Assembly (NCBI GenBank): GCA_947452765.1
Contig: CANGDR010000008.1
Location: forward strand, 1-64,000
Source: Actinomycetota bacterium
Lineage (GTDB): Bacteria > Actinomycetota > Actinomycetes > S36-B12 > UBA5976
Reading direction: 5' to 3'
DNA length: 64,000 nt
The notes under the pieces were generated by a model that searched no databases, was not told where the DNA came from, and worked only from the letters and a program-made list of their open reading frames with translations. The translations under genes and the position numbers were made by a program. This document shows, one piece after another, positions 19,348 through 33,925 of the stretch (within the stretch, counting starts at the first letter, position 1; every line of letters begins with the position of its first letter).

Positions 19348-20364
19348 GTGCATTACCTAATCACAGGACATACCGGCTTTAAGGGCGCATGGCTTGCCAT
19401 GTGGCTTACGCAAGCAGGCCATGAAGTTTCAGGGCTATCCCTGGATCCAGTTCCAGGAGCCTTGTTTGAAAAGGCAAATGTAACGTCTCTTTTAAAACAC
19501 GACCTTCGCGGAGACATCCGAGACTTGGCGACAGTCCAGGCAGCCCTTTCCACCACCCAACCGGATGTAGTTTTCCATCTTGCGGCCCAACCGCTAGTTC
19601 GAGAGTCATATCAAGATCCTCGGGGAACAATTGAAACGAATGTAATTGGCACTATGAATCTTCTGACTGCGGTTTCCCAAACCCCGAGCATAAAAGCACA
19701 TGTGGTTATCACTACCGACAAGGTTTATAAGAATATCGATCAAATTTGGGGCTATCGGGAAATCGACCCGCTCGGTGGCGATGATCCGTATTCAGCCTCA
19801 AAAGCGATGGCTGACATTTTGACGCAATCGTGGGTTAAGAGTTTCGGTGGACCTCCAACGGCCATAGCTCGAGCTGGCAACGTGATTGGTGGAGGGGATG
19901 TCTGTAAAGATCGCTTACTCCCAGATTTGATAACTGCGTATTCGAAGGGGAGAACTCCAGAATTACGATTCCCAAATGCTGTTCGCCCGTGGCAACATGT
20001 GCTTGATTGCCTCAATGGATATATAACGCTTTCGAATGAATTGCTTGAGGGTCGGGGCCAAGGCGAATGGAATTTCGGTCCTGATACTGATTCTTTTGTT
20101 CCGGTGGGACAAGTAGCTAGTCTCGTAGCTGACATGTATGGAATTTCAAATCAAGTATGGACACTAGCGTCCGACCAACAACCACACGAAGCTAATCTAT
20201 TGTCGCTTGACGCAAGGAAAGCCGAGTTATCTTTAAATTGGCACAACAAACTAAATTTCCAGGAAGCGGTTCGCTGGACAGTTGAATGGCACCAACAATT
20301 GAGTCAGGGTGACGATGCCTTTGCACTTGCTTCTGATCAAATTTCACTATTTGGGGAAATGTAG
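19348..20364 (+). CDS. rfbG: CDP-glucose 4,6-dehydratase (RfbG-like)
   Basis: YLITGHTGFKGAWLAMWLTQAGHEVSGLSLDP; DVVFHLAAQPLVRESYQDPRGTIETNVIGTMNLL; TTDKVYKN; PDLITAYSKGRTPELRFPNAVRPWQHVLD. Confidence 0.9.
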   Translation: MHYLITGHTGFKGAWLAMWLTQAGHEVSGLSLDPVPGALFEKANVTSLLKHDLRGDIRDLATVQAALSTTQPDVVFHLAAQPLVRESYQDPRGTIETNVIGTMNLLTAVSQTPSIKAHVVITTDKVYKNIDQIWGYREIDPLGGDDPYSASKAMADILTQSWVKSFGGPPTAIARAGNVIGGGDVCKDRLLPDLITAYSKGRTPELRFPNAVRPWQHVLDCLNGYITLSNELLEGRGQGEWNFGPDTDSFVPVGQVASLVADMYGISNQVWTLASDQQPHEANLLSLDARKAELSLNWHNKLNFQEAVRWTVEWHQQLSQGDDAFALASDQISLFGEM

Positions 20365-20492
20365 TCAGATATCAGTAGCTAGATTTCGTTGCAAATAAAC
20401 AATTTCAAGATAATCAGGCATCTAGACAATTCACCTAAATCAGACATGAGATAGTATTAGGTATTGAAGCTATTAGGCGTAGGAGTTAAGAG

Positions 20493-22004
20493 ATGTCATT
20501 TTTCGAAGGTTCAGAGAATCGACCATTTTTGGTTCTGGATTTAGCAAATAATCACAATGGATCTGTTGAACATGGCAAAAAAATTATTGATGGCATAAAA
20601 GCAGCACTAGATGGTAGTAATTTTAAAACACTAATTAAGTTTCAATACCGCAATTTAGACACTTTCATACACCCCGATTTTAAGGGTCGCGAAGACATTA
20701 AATACATAAAGCGATTTGAAAGTACGCGACTGTCCTGGGATCAATTTCTTGAACTTGCCGATTATGTACGCGCTAGTGGTTTTATGGCTGCTTGCACGCC
20801 ATTTGACGAATTCTCAGTGTCTAAAATTGTCGAACATAAATATGATGTTTTAAAGATCGCGAGTGCGTCTTTTACAGATTGGCCTGTCTTGGAAGCTGCT
20901 GTCTTGACCGACCTGCCAATAATTGCTTCCACCGCAGGAGCCTCAGTTGAAGAGATTGATCGCGTAGTCAGCTTCTTCACAAATCGCAATAAGGATTTCT
21001 GTTTAATGCATTGTGTTGCAGCGTATCCAACTCACGATGAAGATCTGCAACTAAACAGAATCGACTTTCTAACCAATCGCTATGAAGGCATTCCAATTGG
21101 TTACTCAACCCATGAAAATCCAAATAACTACATTGCAGGTCAGTTAGCTATCGCAAAAGGTGCCAGATTATTGGAGCGCCATGTTGGTATTTCAAGTGCA
21201 GATTCCCCTCTAAATGACTATTCGTCAGGCCCTGAAACTTTAAGTGACTGGGTTAAGGCATTGGAAGATGGACTAACAATGTGTGGTCGCACCGACGGAA
21301 TGTTTAGCCCTGTTGCCGCCGAGCTCGAAGCACTGGGAGGTTTACGCCGCGGTGTTTTTGCGAAATCGTCAATTTCAGAAGGAGCTTCAATCTCTAATGA
21401 TGAGGTTTTCTTTGCAATTCCACTTCAAGACGGCCAGTTAGTAGCAAATGAATGGTCAAAGTATGTTGCTCATAAGCCAAAATCAAGTCTGGCTGAGAAC
21501 TCCCCATTGCTAAGGGAAAATCTAGATATTGAATTCCAGCAAGAAAAGATCTGGAAGATTGTTCAGGACACTCAAAATCTCTTTAAACAAGCTGGAATTA
21601 CAATTCCAGGACAAGCAGAGCTAGAGATCTCTCATCATTATGGGATCGATTCGTTTGCAGAATTTGGCTTATTAATGGTCACTGTTGTCAACCGCGATTA
21701 CTGCAAGAAATTACTTGCGGTGATGCCGGGGCAAACTCATCCCGAGCAGTACCACAAGCAAAAAGAAGAAACATTCCACTGCTTATTTGGGACTTTGGAC
21801 CTTTGGCTTGATGACGAGCATGTCGTTATGACTCCTGGAGACGTTGTTTTGGTTGAACCAGGAGTTCGACACAAGTTTTCATCAAGTGATGGCTGCGTTG
21901 TAGAGGAGATTTCCTCAACTCACTTTAAGAATGATTCTTTCTATGTTGACGAGAGCATAAATCAAAATCCGGACAGAAAGACTTTTGTTTCTTTCTGGGT
22001 GTAG
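20493..22004 (+). CDS. NeuB-family (sialic-acid-synthase-like) enzyme with SAF-like segment and C-terminal cupin domain
   Basis: NeuB barrel signatures (ACTPFDEFSVSKI, LKIASASFTDWPVLEAA, GYSTHENPNNYIAGQLAIAKGARLLERHV), RRGVFAKSSISEGASISNDEV (SAF-like), cupin (MPGQTHPEQYHKQKEETFHCLFGTLDLWLDDEHVVMTPGDVVLVEPGVRHKF). Confidence 0.85.
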   Translation: MSFFEGSENRPFLVLDLANNHNGSVEHGKKIIDGIKAALDGSNFKTLIKFQYRNLDTFIHPDFKGREDIKYIKRFESTRLSWDQFLELADYVRASGFMAACTPFDEFSVSKIVEHKYDVLKIASASFTDWPVLEAAVLTDLPIIASTAGASVEEIDRVVSFFTNRNKDFCLMHCVAAYPTHDEDLQLNRIDFLTNRYEGIPIGYSTHENPNNYIAGQLAIAKGARLLERHVGISSADSPLNDYSSGPETLSDWVKALEDGLTMCGRTDGMFSPVAAELEALGGLRRGVFAKSSISEGASISNDEVFFAIPLQDGQLVANEWSKYVAHKPKSSLAENSPLLRENLDIEFQQEKIWKIVQDTQNLFKQAGITIPGQAELEISHHYGIDSFAEFGLLMVTVVNRDYCKKLLAVMPGQTHPEQYHKQKEETFHCLFGTLDLWLDDEHVVMTPGDVVLVEPGVRHKFSSSDGCVVEEISSTHFKNDSFYVDESINQNPDRKTFVSFWV

Positions 22005-22010
22005 AAAAAA

Positions 22011-22610
22011 TTGAACACGTTAGTTGTGTGGGACATAGATGATGTCTTAAATCCATTAATGCAAGAATGGCTAGAACATCAAAAACATACGAAAAAAGTG
22101 GACCTTGAATTCAAATATACAAATTTAGAAAATCCAGATTTTAGCGAAAGCTTAAACTGGAGCCGCAAAGATTTTATTGACTCATTAGATGAATTTCGGT
22201 TGAATTTCCAAGCGACCCTTGAGCCAAATAATTTAATTCAGAAGTGGTTTATGGAAGGGAAATTAAAAGATGTACATCACGCGGCATTAACCGCAACGCC
22301 CCAGAAGTTTTCTAACATCTCAAAAGATTGGCTTCAAAGGAATTTTGGCCAGTACATTAACGATTTTTACTTAGCACCATCCGCAAGAAATGACGATCTG
22401 CAACCACGATTACGCAAGTATGACTTCTACAAAGAATTCAAAGGGAAATACTCAAACGTAATTGTAATTGATGATCGACCCGATAATTTAGAGTCTGCTA
22501 AAGCTGCTGGGGTATCCACACTATGTTGGCCCCAACCGTGGAACCATTCACTATTAGACTCTAAAGCGACATTGAAAGAACTTTCGAGGACGATTCTTGA
22601 ATGGAGTTAG
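22011..22610 (+). CDS. Small HAD-like hydrolase
   Basis: Motif I VVWDIDDVLNPL and motif IV IVIDDRPDNLESAKAAGV. TTG start 6 bp after the NeuB-cupin stop. Confidence 0.7.
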   Translation: MNTLVVWDIDDVLNPLMQEWLEHQKHTKKVDLEFKYTNLENPDFSESLNWSRKDFIDSLDEFRLNFQATLEPNNLIQKWFMEGKLKDVHHAALTATPQKFSNISKDWLQRNFGQYINDFYLAPSARNDDLQPRLRKYDFYKEFKGKYSNVIVIDDRPDNLESAKAAGVSTLCWPQPWNHSLLDSKATLKELSRTILEWS

Positions 22611-22614
22611 TTGA

Positions 22615-24396
22615 GTGAAAACGATGACAATCGCAGATTTTCTTATGCATAGATTGGCCATGTTTGGCGCTCGTCATGTTTTTCTGATTCCGGGTGGTGG
22701 TTCTATGCACCTTGTCGATGCGCTGGGAAGAAATCAAGACCTTGAACCGGTCGCAATGCTTCATGAGCAAGGAGTAGGAATTGCTGCAGAGGCGTACGCA
22801 CAGTACACAGATGGCATTGGAGTTGCTTTAGTCACTACAGGCCCTGGAGGTACGAACGTTTTGACAGCTGTTGCAGCAGCCTGGCTTGACTCCACTCCTC
22901 TCGTTGTAATTTCTGGGCAAGTTAAAACGGCTGACTTAGTTGGAAGCAGGGGAGTAAGACAATTTGGTTTTCAGGAAATTGATATTTGTGCAATGGCTAA
23001 GCCAATTACGAAAGCCGCTATAACAATTACCGATGTGTCAAAAGCCATCGAGCAAATAATAGAAACAATCACCATTGCAGTCAGCGGCAGACCAGGACCC
23101 GTTTTGATTGACATTCCTTTAGATATCCAAGCAACTGAAGTTAGTGTTACAGCGGAGCAACTAGATGGCCAAGCTGTGCGCGAAGTGGACCCTAAAGACA
23201 CGTTAGATTTGACTAGATTATTAAGTGAATTAAATCAAGCAAAGAGACCGGTTTTATTAATTGGAAATGGCGTTCGGCTCGCGAAAGCAACTGCGGCACT
23301 GATTGAATTTGCTGAACGGACAAATATTCCATGCTTGTTTACCTGGAAGGCATTCGACATGCTTCCATTCGACCATCATTTAAATGCTGGACGACCGGGT
23401 GCAGTTGCTAGCCGCTACGCCAACTTTACCCAGCAGGCATCTGATTATTTTATAAGTATTGGTGCACGACTAGATTTGGGCCAAACTGGATATCGACCTG
23501 AAAATCTTGCTCCAAGAGCGCACCGTGTAGTTGTCGACATTGATGAGAATGAAATTTTGAAGCTAGATCAGAAAGATATCGAGTCATGGGCAGTTGATGC
23601 CGGTAGTTTTTTAAACTCTCTAAATGAACAGTCGAAAAGCCTTACTTGGAGTGGCTATCAGCCGTGGCACGAAGCGATAGTAAATTGGAAATCGGAGTTT
23701 CCAATTGATCTAAAACCAGGACATGATCCTATGGAAACTTATGAAGTTCTAAAGGTGCTATCTGACTTTATGCAACCGAATGATATCTTCGTCCCTGGTA
23801 GCAGCGGTGCCTGCAGTGAAGTTTCGATGCAGGCCTTTGAAAACAAAACAAGACAACGAGTTTTGAACTCAGAAGGTCTTGGACCAATGGGGTTTGGAAT
23901 CCCAGCTCCCATAGGAGTTTCGTGTGTTGCGCCTAATGAGCGAATTTTTTCTATTGACGGTGATGGCGGCTTCCAAATGAATATTCAGGAATTGGAGGTA
24001 GCTGCGAGACGTAAGGCCAAAATTTGCTGGATCGTGCTTGATAACAACGGGTATGGATCCATAAAGGTTACTCAAGATGGTTACTTCAATGGCAGGAGAG
24101 TAGCAAGTGATCCTGATAGCGGCCTGACTTTACCTGACGCAGCTAAAGTTGCAAAATCTTTTGGGCTGAACTCACACACAGTTACTGATGCGAGTCAACT
24201 CCGCAACGCGTTAGAAGAATTTGCTGTCACACAAACACCAACAGTGATTGTTGCTAAAGTAAATCCAAATCACAAAACGGAACCAAGAATTGCGAGTATG
24301 CGCAACGAAGATGGCACAATGTCAAGTGATGCGCTGGAGAATTTAACTCCAAAGTTGCCGGCTGACGTACTTAAAGCTCATTTAACATTTGACTGA
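22615..24396 (+). CDS. ThDP-dependent enzyme of the acetolactate-synthase superfamily (carboligase or decarboxylase)
   Basis: Catalytic Glu context MLHEQGVGIAAEAYAQ; TTGPGGTNVLTAVAAAWLDSTPLVVISGQ; ThDP motif GDGGFQMNIQELEVAARRKAKICWIVLDNNGYGSI. Confidence 0.88.
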   Translation: MKTMTIADFLMHRLAMFGARHVFLIPGGGSMHLVDALGRNQDLEPVAMLHEQGVGIAAEAYAQYTDGIGVALVTTGPGGTNVLTAVAAAWLDSTPLVVISGQVKTADLVGSRGVRQFGFQEIDICAMAKPITKAAITITDVSKAIEQIIETITIAVSGRPGPVLIDIPLDIQATEVSVTAEQLDGQAVREVDPKDTLDLTRLLSELNQAKRPVLLIGNGVRLAKATAALIEFAERTNIPCLFTWKAFDMLPFDHHLNAGRPGAVASRYANFTQQASDYFISIGARLDLGQTGYRPENLAPRAHRVVVDIDENEILKLDQKDIESWAVDAGSFLNSLNEQSKSLTWSGYQPWHEAIVNWKSEFPIDLKPGHDPMETYEVLKVLSDFMQPNDIFVPGSSGACSEVSMQAFENKTRQRVLNSEGLGPMGFGIPAPIGVSCVAPNERIFSIDGDGGFQMNIQELEVAARRKAKICWIVLDNNGYGSIKVTQDGYFNGRRVASDPDSGLTLPDAAKVAKSFGLNSHTVTDASQLRNALEEFAVTQTPTVIVAKVNPNHKTEPRIASMRNEDGTMSSDALENLTPKLPADVLKAHLTFD

Positions 24397-25397
24397 GCAT
24401 GGTGCCATTCAATTGTGCGCTCAATTGAGTCTTTTAAATCTGTATAAACATCAAGGTCAAGTACATTACGCGCGCGATCAATATTCGGCACGTATTTAGT
24501 TGGTTCGTGTGTATCGCCTAAATTAATCTTGACATCGAGCTTGGCGATACTCGCAACTAGCTCGGCACATTCCCGAATTGATATAGATTTATCACTACCG
24601 ACATTCAATGGTTCGGTGTAATCACTATGCATGTATGCAAAAAGCCAGCTAATCAAATCTGCTGCGTACAAATAGGATCTGAAGTCAACGCCAGAGCTGG
24701 TGAGTGTAATTGGCTTCGATTCGATTGCAGCTCTAATAAAGTTTCCAATTGCGAAGTGTGAATCAATTGGCAAATATGGCCCAACAAAGGCAAATAAGCG
24801 CGCATTCTTAGCGCTAACTACTCCATCTTTGGTTGCCTCTTTGAGAATCATTTCCGTAGCTCGCTTAGATGCGTCATAAACTTCAGCATCCTTGAGCCAG
24901 TCATTAGCCACTCGTAAATCCTCCGTAATCTCGAGCCCTGGTTTTAAGCCCCGGCCATACACGGCACCGCTACTAGTGTGCATAAACTTTGGTGGTTCAG
25001 TTTGCCCTGCAGCTAAGTCAAGAAGTCTGAAAGTTCCGCGAATACTTGAATCGATGATGTGTGAAGAACTGGGAGTTGAAGGAACTGCACTCGAAGTTGC
25101 CAGGTGCCAAATTTGATGTACCGGCTCATCTATTTTCAATTTATTGGATACATCTTGTTCAAGATACTTGACTTTTTCGGCGCCCTTAATCCCTTGCAAC
25201 TGACTTTGCGCTTTAGTTTTAGACCTGACAATAAGAATAAGGCGCGGACTTTGCGCGCCACACCTAAGTAATGATTCAACGAGCCACCTACCGACAAATC
25301 CCGTTCCGCCCGTAATCACTACCGTTTGGTCTTGGGCAGACTCTAGGAATTGAGCACTATAGGTAGATATTTGCTCTGCGTCACGCTCACTTATCAA
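24378..25397 (-). CDS. NAD(P)-dependent sugar epimerase/reductase (extended SDR)
   Basis: TVVITGGTGFVGRWLVESLLR; HTSSGAVYGRG; YDASKRATEM (YxxxK). Convergent with the ThDP gene, 19-bp overlap. Confidence 0.85.
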   Translation of the reverse strand: MISERDAEQISTYSAQFLESAQDQTVVITGGTGFVGRWLVESLLRCGAQSPRLILIVRSKTKAQSQLQGIKGAEKVKYLEQDVSNKLKIDEPVHQIWHLATSSAVPSTPSSSHIIDSSIRGTFRLLDLAAGQTEPPKFMHTSSGAVYGRGLKPGLEITEDLRVANDWLKDAEVYDASKRATEMILKEATKDGVVSAKNARLFAFVGPYLPIDSHFAIGNFIRAAIESKPITLTSSGVDFRSYLYAADLISWLFAYMHSDYTEPLNVGSDKSISIRECAELVASIAKLDVKINLGDTHEPTKYVPNIDRARNVLDLDVYTDLKDSIERTIEWHHAQSNVK

Positions 25398-28213: not shown

Positions 28214-29434
28214 ATGATGTTTCAATCAGAAAATGGCCGCTCAGATATCGATTTGAATAAATTTTATAGCGATGAAAACAGTGGAAGACTTCACATGCCA
28301 ACCACCTTTTTTTGGGGTTCTGGATTCATAAGAAATATTCCAAATCTTGTCAATAGTCGAAGCGTGGAAGTTTTCATCGATGGAATCGTCGCTGAGCAAA
28401 TGGACTTGTCATGGATTGATGAACTTAACATCTCGAATTTGCATAGAACTTATGGGACTCCGTGGGTTGAAGACGTGGAGGAATACATAGAGGAGAATCC
28501 ACAAAACCCCGAATGCGCACTCGTGATCGGTGGCGGGAGTACCGCTGATTTTGCTAAAGGTGTAATTGCTCGGCGCGCATATGGAGAAATTTCGGAACTA
28601 GGGGTTGGTAAGCGCTCCGGTGCGCAAGTAGCTAAATCTGCTTTACCTGAGATAGTCGGAGTGCCAACTACGATTGGTTCTGGGGCTGAAAGCAGCAGAT
28701 ATTTTGTTCTATATGAAAAGGCAACTAAGGCAAAGGTTCATGGTAAGTCCTGGGCCTTGGTCGCCTCAACCGTAGTTGTAGACCCGGATCTGTTGCGTAA
28801 TCTGCCCCCGCAGGTAGCTATTTCAAGTGCCTTTGACTCGTTCGTACACTACTGGGAAAGCCTTATTTGTAAACATGAAAGCACCTTTGCTACAAGAATG
28901 TTTAGCAAACATGGGATTGCTGAAGTGATTATTAACCTAAAGCGTGTTTTACAAGATAGTAGCGACCTTGAGGCGTGGACTAATTTGGGTCTAAATGCAA
29001 GTTTGGCTGGTACGGCAATTTCAAATACCCGAACGGGCAACATTCACGAAGCTGCAGGAGCGCTGCTTGAACGGGTGAACCTATCGCATGGAGAAACACT
29101 AATGGTATTCGCGCAGTCCGCATACGATCAATACATGACCGAGACTTCAACCCTGCTCGATAACACTGTCCAACAATCCGGATTGGTAGATTTTCAAAGT
29201 GCTTTAAATTGGTGGAACGAGCTATTTGAAAAATATGGAATGATAAATAAGATTTCTCGAGAACTAAATTTGATTTTGGATCTAGATGAAGCTCGCCAAC
29301 ATATCTTTAAACGTGTCTCTAATGACAAAGTGTGGGTTAACAAAGAATCTCCGATTGGTTACGGAGATGCACTGATTCGGGACCTAATCGATGAAGGATT
29401 TTCTAAGTTCCTCACCGACTTAGTTGTGAGCTAG
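28214..29434 (+). CDS. Iron-containing alcohol dehydrogenase / dehydroquinate-synthase-like fold
   Basis: ALVIGGGSTADFAKGVIA (GGGSxxD), GVPTTIGSGAESSRY, FDSFVHYWESL and NLSHGETL metal-ligand-like motifs. Confidence 0.8.
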   Translation: MMFQSENGRSDIDLNKFYSDENSGRLHMPTTFFWGSGFIRNIPNLVNSRSVEVFIDGIVAEQMDLSWIDELNISNLHRTYGTPWVEDVEEYIEENPQNPECALVIGGGSTADFAKGVIARRAYGEISELGVGKRSGAQVAKSALPEIVGVPTTIGSGAESSRYFVLYEKATKAKVHGKSWALVASTVVVDPDLLRNLPPQVAISSAFDSFVHYWESLICKHESTFATRMFSKHGIAEVIINLKRVLQDSSDLEAWTNLGLNASLAGTAISNTRTGNIHEAAGALLERVNLSHGETLMVFAQSAYDQYMTETSTLLDNTVQQSGLVDFQSALNWWNELFEKYGMINKISRELNLILDLDEARQHIFKRVSNDKVWVNKESPIGYGDALIRDLIDEGFSKFLTDLVVS

Positions 29435-31703: not shown

Positions 31704-32477
31704 TTATTTCCAACTTTTCCAAGGGGCCGTTCCATGGTCCCACATCTCGTTTAGCATCGTCGCTTCTCTGTAAGTATCCATTGGTTGCCAGAAGCCTTCA
31801 TGTCGGTACGCCATCAACTGTCCATCAGAAGCAAGCTTTGCCAAAGGTTCTTGCTCGAGTATGCAGTCATTGTCAAGATATTTGAAAACCTCAGGTTCGA
31901 AAATAAAGTAGCCAACATTTATCCAACCCTCTACTTTTGGTTTTTCTTTAAAGCTCTTAACCAACCCACTAGGCTCTACATCCATGATTCCAAATCGACT
32001 GGAAGGTTGAACGGTGGTTACCGTTGCAAGCTTTCCATGTGACTTATGGAAATCAAGTAGATCTGAAATATTTATATCTGATAGCCCGTCTCCATAGGTG
32101 CATAAGAATCGCTCACCCGCAAGATATTTTTCGGATCGTTTCACGCGTCCACCGGTCATTGTAAGTTCACCGGTGAAGGCTAATGTAACTTTCCAATTTC
32201 CTTCGTCATGTGCATCATGGAAATCAATAACCCGATTTTGGCCGAGAGAGATAGTGAAATCATTGTTTCTAGCCTCGTAATCTAAAAAATATTCCTTTAT
32301 AACGTCACTCTTGTAGCCGGTCGCTACAACAAAATCTTCAATACCGTGTTGCGAGAGACTTTTCATGATGTGCCAGATAATCGGTCGACCGCCAACTTCA
32401 ACCATTGGCTTAGGCTTAAATTCAGTTTCTTCCCGTAATCTGGTACCAAGACCACCAGCCAGTAAGAGTGCCTTCAT
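31704..32477 (-). CDS. rfbF: Glucose-1-phosphate cytidylyltransferase
   Basis: MKALLLAGGLGTRLREETEFKPKPMVEVGGRPIIWHIMK; CTYGDGLSDINI; KVEGWINVGYFIFEPEVF. ATG at 32477 follows GGGAGGAAT. Confidence 0.93.
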   Translation of the reverse strand: MKALLLAGGLGTRLREETEFKPKPMVEVGGRPIIWHIMKSLSQHGIEDFVVATGYKSDVIKEYFLDYEARNNDFTISLGQNRVIDFHDAHDEGNWKVTLAFTGELTMTGGRVKRSEKYLAGERFLCTYGDGLSDINISDLLDFHKSHGKLATVTTVQPSSRFGIMDVEPSGLVKSFKEKPKVEGWINVGYFIFEPEVFKYLDNDCILEQEPLAKLASDGQLMAYRHEGFWQPMDTYREATMLNEMWDHGTAPWKSWK

Positions 32478-32572
32478 TATTCCTCCCAGAACGTGTCCGT
32501 CTAGTGTATCGGAACCAGCTTGTTTGGTTTTCCTGATACCTTTATGCAACGCGACGAGAGGCAAGAATCACT

Positions 32573-33925
32573 ATGCTGGAGAGCGATAATTTAACCGAGA
32601 TTGGCGAAAAAGTGAGTTCTGAGAAAGTTGAACAATTAAGACAAAGTACATTAGCCGCCACTCGGGCGTTTGCGGAAGTCTCTCTTTTAAAATCTGAATT
32701 CATTCCAGGAGAATCGACAGTTCCAGTGTCGGGAAAAGTGCTTGACCCGGATGACATAGTCGCACTCGTCGAATCTTCCCTTGATGGCTGGCTCACGGCT
32801 GGTCGATTTACGGCTGAATTTGAACGCGAGTTAGCTGCATATGTGGGAGCGAGAAGTTCCTTATTTGTTAATAGCGGTTCGAGTGCGAATCTGGTAGCCC
32901 TAAGTGGATTAACCAGCCATAAATTGGGAGCAAAAGCTTTAAAGCCCGGAGATGAAGTATTAACCGTTGCCATGGGTTTTCCAACTACGGTAAATCCGAT
33001 ATTTCAAAACGGGTTAAAGCCAGTCGTTGTAGATGTCGAGCTGGGAACTTATGATGCTAAGGCTGAAATGCTGCGCGAAGCCATCGGTCCTAAGACGCGC
33101 GCAATCATGATGGCTCACACTTTGGGAAATCCATTCGATTTAGATACAGTTCAATCCCTTTGTAAAGAGCACGATCTCTGGTTGGTTGAAGATTCTTGCG
33201 ATGCACTTGGCGCTACATATAGAGGTCAACGTACGGGGAGTTTTGGCGACACTGCGACAGTAAGTTTTTACCCAGCGCATCACATAACAACAGGTGAGGG
33301 CGGCGCTGTTTTCGTAAAGTCGCCACTTGTCAAAAAGCAAGTTGAGTCATTCCGAGACTGGGGCCGCGATTGCTATTGCGAAACTGGGCACGACGATACA
33401 TGCGCGAAGCGATTTGGTTGGAAACTGGGTGATTTGCCGGAGGGATATGATCACAAATATACATATAGCCATATCGGTTACAACCTGAAAGCAACAGATA
33501 TGCAGGCCGCTCTTGGACTAACACAGTTAAAGAAGCTAGATAGATTTATCGCTGCCAGAAACGCAAATTTCGAATATTTATATTCCCGCCTGGATGGAAC
33601 TGAGGGCTTGATACTTCCTAAAGCGACAGAGCATTCTGTGCCCTCATGGTTTGGATTCCCAATTACCTTGGATCCAAGTCACCCGGTAAACCGTGAAGAA
33701 TTGCTTCGCTTCCTTGATTCACGGAAAATTGGAACGCGCTTGATGTTTGCTGGAAATATTTTGAAGCAGCCGGCATACAAGAATGTGGAATTTAGGGTTG
33801 TGGGTGATCTGACTAACACAGATATTGTCATGACTCGAACTTTTTGGGTTGGCGTATATCCAGGACTAACGGAGCCTATGTTGGATTATGTGGTGGACTC
33901 GATTCTAGAATTTGTTGGTAGATGA
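32573..33925 (+). CDS. rfbH: CDP-4-dehydro-6-deoxyglucose 3-dehydratase (RfbH/E1-like, PMP and [2Fe-2S])
   Basis: [16 protein letters not shown] (His replacing the PLP Lys), cysteine cluster [33 protein letters not shown]. Confidence 0.93.

Follow-up and report, generated by a model that had tools for sequence, protein, structure and literature searches.

The 64,000-nucleotide stretch of DNA analysed here (the window) belongs to contig CANGDR010000008.1 of assembly GCA_947452765.1, from an actinobacterium with a small genome, and contains an island of sugar genes in which five neighbouring genes, at 19348-25397, form the set under study. The first four are on the plus strand. RfbG, a CDP (cytidine diphosphate)-glucose 4,6-dehydratase (19348-20364), matches TIGR02622 with 401.5 bits against a cut-off of 278.45. 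It is followed by NeuB-cupin (20493-22004), where Pfam NeuB and Cupin_2 domains delineate a putative phosphoenolpyruvate (PEP)-dependent 3-deoxy-ulosonate synthase fused to a cupin of the D-lyxose-isomerase type; by a predicted HAD phosphatase (22011-22610), recognised by conserved HAD motifs and predicted fold; and by a YerE-like thiamine diphosphate (ThDP) carboligase (22615-24396), composed of three TPP-enzyme domains, whose best solved relative is JanthE, 8rph. On the minus strand, an extended short-chain dehydrogenase/reductase (SDR) matching Pfam Epimerase (24378-25397) is a proposed 1'-ketone reductase, in the role of YerF.

RfbG is separated from NeuB-cupin by 128 bp, NeuB-cupin from the HAD gene by 6 bp and the HAD gene from the ThDP gene by 4 bp; the SDR gene is convergent with the ThDP gene and overlaps its end by 19 bp. 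The open reading frame positions thus reproduce the layout given in an earlier reading of the sequence (the original prediction), i.e. four co-directional genes, the last three with gaps of 4-6 bp, and a convergent SDR. As also stated there, RfbF and RfbH lie in the same island; their position is 31704-33925. RfbF, glucose-1-phosphate cytidylyltransferase (31704-32564, minus strand), bears the name assigned in that prediction; its homologues, 45-63% identical, adjoin the set in many loci, and its start is probably the first ATG, downstream of the listed TTG. RfbH, the CDP-4-keto-6-deoxyglucose 3-dehydrase (E1; 32573-33925, plus strand), matches PRK15407 with 694 bits against a cut-off of 423 and carries a histidine at the pyridoxal phosphate-lysine site (SFYPAHH), together with a cysteine cluster. 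GC content is 41-43% across 20-32 kb and 45-51% in most of the sequence past 34 kb.

Recurrence of the gene set

NeuB-cupin served as query in one scan of 84,980 species genomes, and the best 80 loci were analysed; many of them are truncated by contig ends. The loci are found in Pseudomonadota, Actinomycetota, Chloroflexi, Bacteroidetes, other bacterial metagenome-assembled genomes and archaeal ones. A YerE-like ThDP gene is located within 2.5 kb of NeuB-cupin in 71 of the 80 loci, and all the ThDP genes found are on the NeuB strand. The ThDP start lies at most 60 bp from the NeuB end in 43 loci and is set off by one small gene in 19, in most of which the gap is filled by a HAD of the window type. 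SDR matches recur close to the ThDP gene in many of the 80 loci, rfbH was detected in 60, and rfbF, rfbG, rfbH and ThDP were detected jointly in 46. No ThDP gene was found near more distant NeuB hits (0/12 loci, with flanks of only about 1.5 kb). Because it holds for most of the nearest loci, in many phyla and on the same strand, against none of the distant ones, the association of NeuB-cupin with the ThDP gene is not a chance one. The gene set singled out in the original prediction therefore occurs very widely in other genomes, often in company with rfbFGH. Locus L029 was evaluated as a further ThDP-bearing one and discarded, as the ThDP fragment found there is an acetolactate synthase.

Distances between NeuB sequences are correlated with those between ThDP sequences (r 0.76, permutation maximum 0.23, n 69), as would be expected of coupled enzymes, but also of joint inheritance.

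Searches of plasmid and annotated-phage proteins with NeuB-cupin revealed only distant NeuB or short cupin matches, and the matches found by searching plasmids with the ThDP enzyme were of the acetolactate synthase type. Of 80 loci on IMG/VR contigs (L106-L185), 48, such as L106:7760-11782, L112:9995-13269 and L153:9977-13776, have NeuB, with or without the cupin, beside a ThDP gene; genes for RfbH-like proteins and SDRs are often present too. Phage-type genes (dUTPase, dNMP kinase, PhoH and exonuclease) were seen in the IMG/VR loci that were spot-checked, and the L153 phage ThDP matches phrog_11199, a group of unknown function. A radical SAM protein is common to about 20 loci and a C-methyltransferase-type protein to about 20 (L064:14667-15776, L094:12783-13916), which suggests further modification of the sugar.

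Identity of the enzymes

A PDB search gave 8rph (1.4e-90) as the best match of the ThDP enzyme. This structure carries a CDG motif and was identified as JanthE because this motif matches the published description (PMC12247030). In the window enzyme the ThDP-binding motif is GDG (449-451), and the catalytic glutamate, Glu51, is invariant in the family alignment. A tree was built from 107 ThDP sequences, including JanthE and 5ahk as YerE-like references, YerE itself being absent. The window enzyme, 68 of the 70 enzymes from NeuB-cupin loci and seven viral enzymes form a clade with support 0.995; all seven viral loci carry NeuB-cupin, and the members of the clade are exclusively NeuB-cupin-linked. 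Acetolactate synthases fall outside it, and the window enzyme is on the side of the tree containing JanthE and 5ahk. Carboligation to a ketone is the activity predicted from its sequence.

The NeuB domain matches the fold of 3g8r (TM 0.96-0.97 by target length) and of 1xuu. Its metal histidines, H207 and H230, align with those of NmeNeuB and are conserved in the family, and the equivalent of NmeNeuB Arg314 is Ile309 in the window and, across the family, usually Phe; the structure matches include the R314A mutant, 4ipi, and the R314K mutant, 4ipj. Since Arg314, essential in NeuB, is replaced, an N-acetylamino sugar is improbable as the aldose substrate. By sequence the cupin domain resembles D-lyxose/D-mannose isomerases, and by fold it matches 2y0o and 7nzp, with TM 0.71 by target length and rmsd 1.8 against the D-lyxose isomerase 2y0o. 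H421, E426 and H460 are invariant in the family, and one ligand position is Gln, not His, in the alignment to 2y0o. The domain is isomerase-like in sequence and fold, and a corresponding activity is predicted.

No Pfam match was found for the HAD protein, and its HAD-IA match is below the cut-off (27.6 against 29.4 bits). In an alignment of 15 homologues D8, D10, K136 and D155 are invariant and T94 nearly so, and the AlphaFold model (pLDDT 93) matches the fold of HAD phosphatases; by these motifs and this model, the gene at 22011-22610 clearly belongs to the HAD group and is of predicted phosphatase type. Other clusters carry a different HAD type, which fits a simple dephosphorylation role.

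Proposed donor supply and route

The neighbours of NeuB-family genes were counted by pooling genome, viral and extra loci: 125 have a ThDP gene only, 21 a CMP (cytidine monophosphate)-sugar synthetase only and one has both (p 3.6e-14 by a Fisher test, which ignores relatedness). The sole overlap, in L029, is due to the acetolactate synthase fragment mentioned above, so that there is no true overlap. Within the 91.65% complete assembly no CMP-sugar synthetase was found, the sole CTP_transf_3 match being GlmU. In L029:2445-5778 and L024:6344-10423 (Pontimonas, G418), NeuB-cupin is accompanied by a CMP-sugar synthetase and an oxidoreductase of the GFO/IDH type in place of the ThDP gene, and loci of this type represent a different ulosonic acid route. 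A conventional N-acetylated, CMP-activated nonulosonic acid is disfavoured by the loss of Arg314 and by the failure to find a CMP-sugar synthetase in the assembly.

A second search, of Actinobacteria with the ThDP family as query, yielded ThDP loci devoid of NeuB. In four of them (L238-L241) an HpcH/HpaI aldolase, of a class that makes 4-hydroxy-2-oxo acids, is close to the ThDP gene; judged by the reference sequences used, this aldolase is found in none of the 80 NeuB-cupin loci. NeuB-less members of the ThDP family are also accompanied by rfbFGH. In the sister species G001, rfbF (82%) and rfbH (84%) are kept near purQ, and within the purQ-flanked island NeuB-cupin, HAD, ThDP and SDR are replaced by 3-dehydroquinate (DHQ)-synthase-like, ThDP, HpcH/HpaI and SDR genes. 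The mutual exclusion of ThDP gene and synthetase, the aldolase in NeuB-less loci and the module swap in G001 argue for a role of NeuB in donor supply. NeuB-cupin and HAD, which the original prediction had left outside the ThDP pathway or assigned to a hybrid or nonulosonic-like sugar, are constant partners of the ThDP clade and most likely make its 2-keto-acid donor.

Other arrangements were also detected. In L200 and L201, from mycobacterial genomes, a cupin-less NeuB adjoins the ThDP gene, followed by GT2 and rfbF. Six ThDP loci (L242-L247) contain no recognised donor enzyme, and in some of them the donor may be pyruvate, or may come from an enzyme that is not recognised. The DHQ-synthase-like gene adjoins ThDP and HpcH/HpaI in the sister species (L248:6854-10533, L249:1317-4979) and in L239:7183-10978, and is also present in 12 viral NeuB loci and in L022; a carbocyclic branch is possible.

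The reading preferred here, to which a probability of about 0.7 is given, is that the product of the island is a CDP-activated 3,6-dideoxyhexose whose C4 bears a long polyhydroxyalkyl branch, NeuB-cupin and HAD supplying the donor. According to their families, RfbF, RfbG and RfbH would produce CDP-4-keto-3,6-dideoxyglucose as acceptor. The cupin domain would interconvert ketose and aldose, which may be phosphorylated; from the aldose and PEP the NeuB domain would form a 3-deoxy-2-ulosonate, and the HAD would remove the phosphate from it. The resulting 2-keto acid, taking the place of pyruvate in a yersiniose-type pathway, would be decarboxylated by the YerE-like enzyme, and the acyl anion so formed would be added by this enzyme at the C4 ketone of the CDP sugar. 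The new 1'-ketone would then be reduced by the SDR, and a glycosyltransferase would transfer the branched sugar to a surface glycan. The branch would have the pattern CHOH-CH2-CHOH-..., with seven carbons if derived from a pentose aldose and eight from a hexose, so that the product would be a caryophyllose-type sugar with a long branch. The original prediction is supported in part. The analogy with YerE and YerF drawn in the original prediction, with the RfbFGH product as substrate, gains support from the YerE-like ThDP enzyme, from the adjoining RfbG and from RfbF and RfbH, which are in the island and recurrent elsewhere.

It is somewhat less probable, though still favoured, that the same holds in general, as a widespread, unnamed route of bacteria, archaea and phages. 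In it, the product of an isomerase-fused synthase of the sialic acid type would not undergo CMP activation; instead, a dedicated YerE-like enzyme would decarboxylate it and attach it to a CDP-ketosugar. The branch would be set by a swappable donor module (NeuB-cupin, NeuB alone or HpcH/HpaI aldolase, in some cases together with a DHQ-synthase-like cyclase). YerE-type branching is already known. A donor module built on NeuB-cupin appears to be undescribed: text searches of the literature, partial in coverage, found no previous suggestion that NeuB provides the donor.

Several points weigh against the preferred reading. Co-occurrence and co-evolution would also fit the joint transfer of two sugar pathways, and they derive from one genome scan, confined to the best 80 loci. 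The canonical reductase partner of RfbH, DdhD, was not found in the assembly, whose completeness is given above, and the two FAD_binding_6 matches resemble other reductases. The likeness of the SDR to YerF is a proposal, and all the reactions, the donor length, the SDR role and the use in a surface glycan are inferred.

The island might serve two separate sugars, the ThDP enzyme and the SDR making a yersiniose-like sugar from pyruvate, and NeuB-cupin and HAD an unrelated ulosonic acid of the same glycan. Yersiniose loci with yerE and yerF do exist, e.g. in Pseudomonas WCS417 (PMC4509608), as do YerE-like loci in which no donor enzyme was recognised (L242-L247), and the CMP-linked NeuB-cupin loci indicate a synthase family able to feed an ordinary ulosonate route. 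This explanation is nevertheless unlikely, given a ThDP clade tied exclusively to NeuB-cupin, with the ThDP gene usually at the NeuB end or one small gene past it, and a CMP-sugar synthetase that is mutually exclusive with ThDP and was not found in this genome. Slightly less probable still is an action of the ThDP enzyme on the NeuB product without any CDP sugar, either by adding an acetyl unit from pyruvate or by decarboxylation to a shorter aldehyde, to give a modified ulosonic acid or a fragment of it. NeuB-cupin and ThDP are the tightest pair of the set, and in 13 of the 80 loci, many truncated by contig ends, ThDP is present without any detected rfb gene; set against this are rfbH in 60 loci, the rfbFGH genes beside NeuB-less family members and the characterised YerE-like enzymes, which add to CDP-ketosugars (PMC12247030).

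That the ThDP enzyme is the acetolactate synthase of the genome, accidentally located here, is already contradicted and may be regarded as most improbable. It is the top TIGR00118 match of the assembly, where a full acetolactate synthase is missing, but its score, 357.6 bits, falls short of the cut-off, 538.35, and 21 of 23 same-genus genomes contain a match over the cut-off (638-785 bits). The genome's own ilvB was apparently cut at a contig end, as an IlvB start lies behind ilvD, named from sequence, at the cut end of contig C33 (G000:C33:3-80, L193). A housekeeping acetolactate synthase is thus ruled out by the score, the separate IlvB of the genus and the tree, and the grouping with IlvB on which the original prediction would have fallen was not observed.

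Elsewhere in the window, an iron-type alcohol dehydrogenase (28214-29434), flanked by FkbM methyltransferase and GT2, has a 37% relative in the Polynucleobacter locus L027. A phosphonate route, hinted at by its PsrA-like character, was considered, and no further phosphonate gene was found among the genes scanned.

If true, the proposed route would explain the source of unusual 2-oxo-acid donors in long-branched sugars, would give NeuB-type products a fate besides CMP activation and would allow branched sugars to be predicted from more than 70 loci. One of these loci is in Pseudomonas capeferrum WCS358, whose O-antigen genes are at odds with the reported composition (PMC4509608). YerE-like enzymes are also wanted for the biocatalytic preparation of chiral tertiary alcohols (PMC12247030), and the NeuB-cupin-linked clade may take long polyhydroxylated donors.

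Comparison with known systems

The NeuB domain shares fold and metal histidines with the nonulosonate synthases NeuB and PseI. It differs from these, and from the 3-deoxy-D-manno-octulosonate (KDO) and 2-keto-3-deoxynononate (KDN) routes, in the hydrophobic residue replacing Arg314, in the isomerase fused as a cupin, in that no CMP-synthetase was found and in the proposed use of the acid as acyl donor. The order isomerase-synthase-phosphatase resembles KdsD-KdsA-KdsC. Gastriose has a C7 branch of the caryophyllose type, which is what would be expected from a C8 ulosonic acid.

With the yersiniose A pathway (Ddh enzymes, YerE, YerF) the set has in common the CDP-4-keto-3,6-dideoxyglucose acceptor, a YerE-like ThDP enzyme and an SDR-type partner. 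YerE, however, takes pyruvate, whereas the window enzyme has dedicated NeuB-cupin and HAD genes and belongs to another branch of the family; the gene context argues for a donor other than pyruvate. JanthE (PDB 8rph) differs by its CDG motif, GDG in the window enzyme, and its sister in the tree is the aldolase-linked enzyme of L240 (support 0.94), outside the NeuB-cupin clade.

The preferred donors of ErwE, of erwiniose synthesis, are 4-hydroxy-2-oxo acids, pyruvate not being used, and MMAR_2332, of caryophyllose synthesis, is similar (PMC12247030). The caryophyllose branch is a 1,3,4,5-tetrahydroxyhexyl on C4 of a 3,6-dideoxyhexose, and loss of MMAR_2331, 2332 or 2333 leads to LOS-II*, without caryophyllose (PMC5706390). 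Loss of CO2 from a 2-keto-3-deoxy acid, addition at C4 and reduction would be expected to leave CHOH-CH2-CHOH, with which the caryophyllose pattern agrees. Hydroxylated 2-oxo-acid donors and 4-C-branched 3,6-dideoxyhexose products are thus common to ErwE, MMAR_2332 and, as proposed, the window (PMC12247030, PMC5706390), which differs from both systems, as described, in that its proposed donor enzyme is NeuB-cupin.

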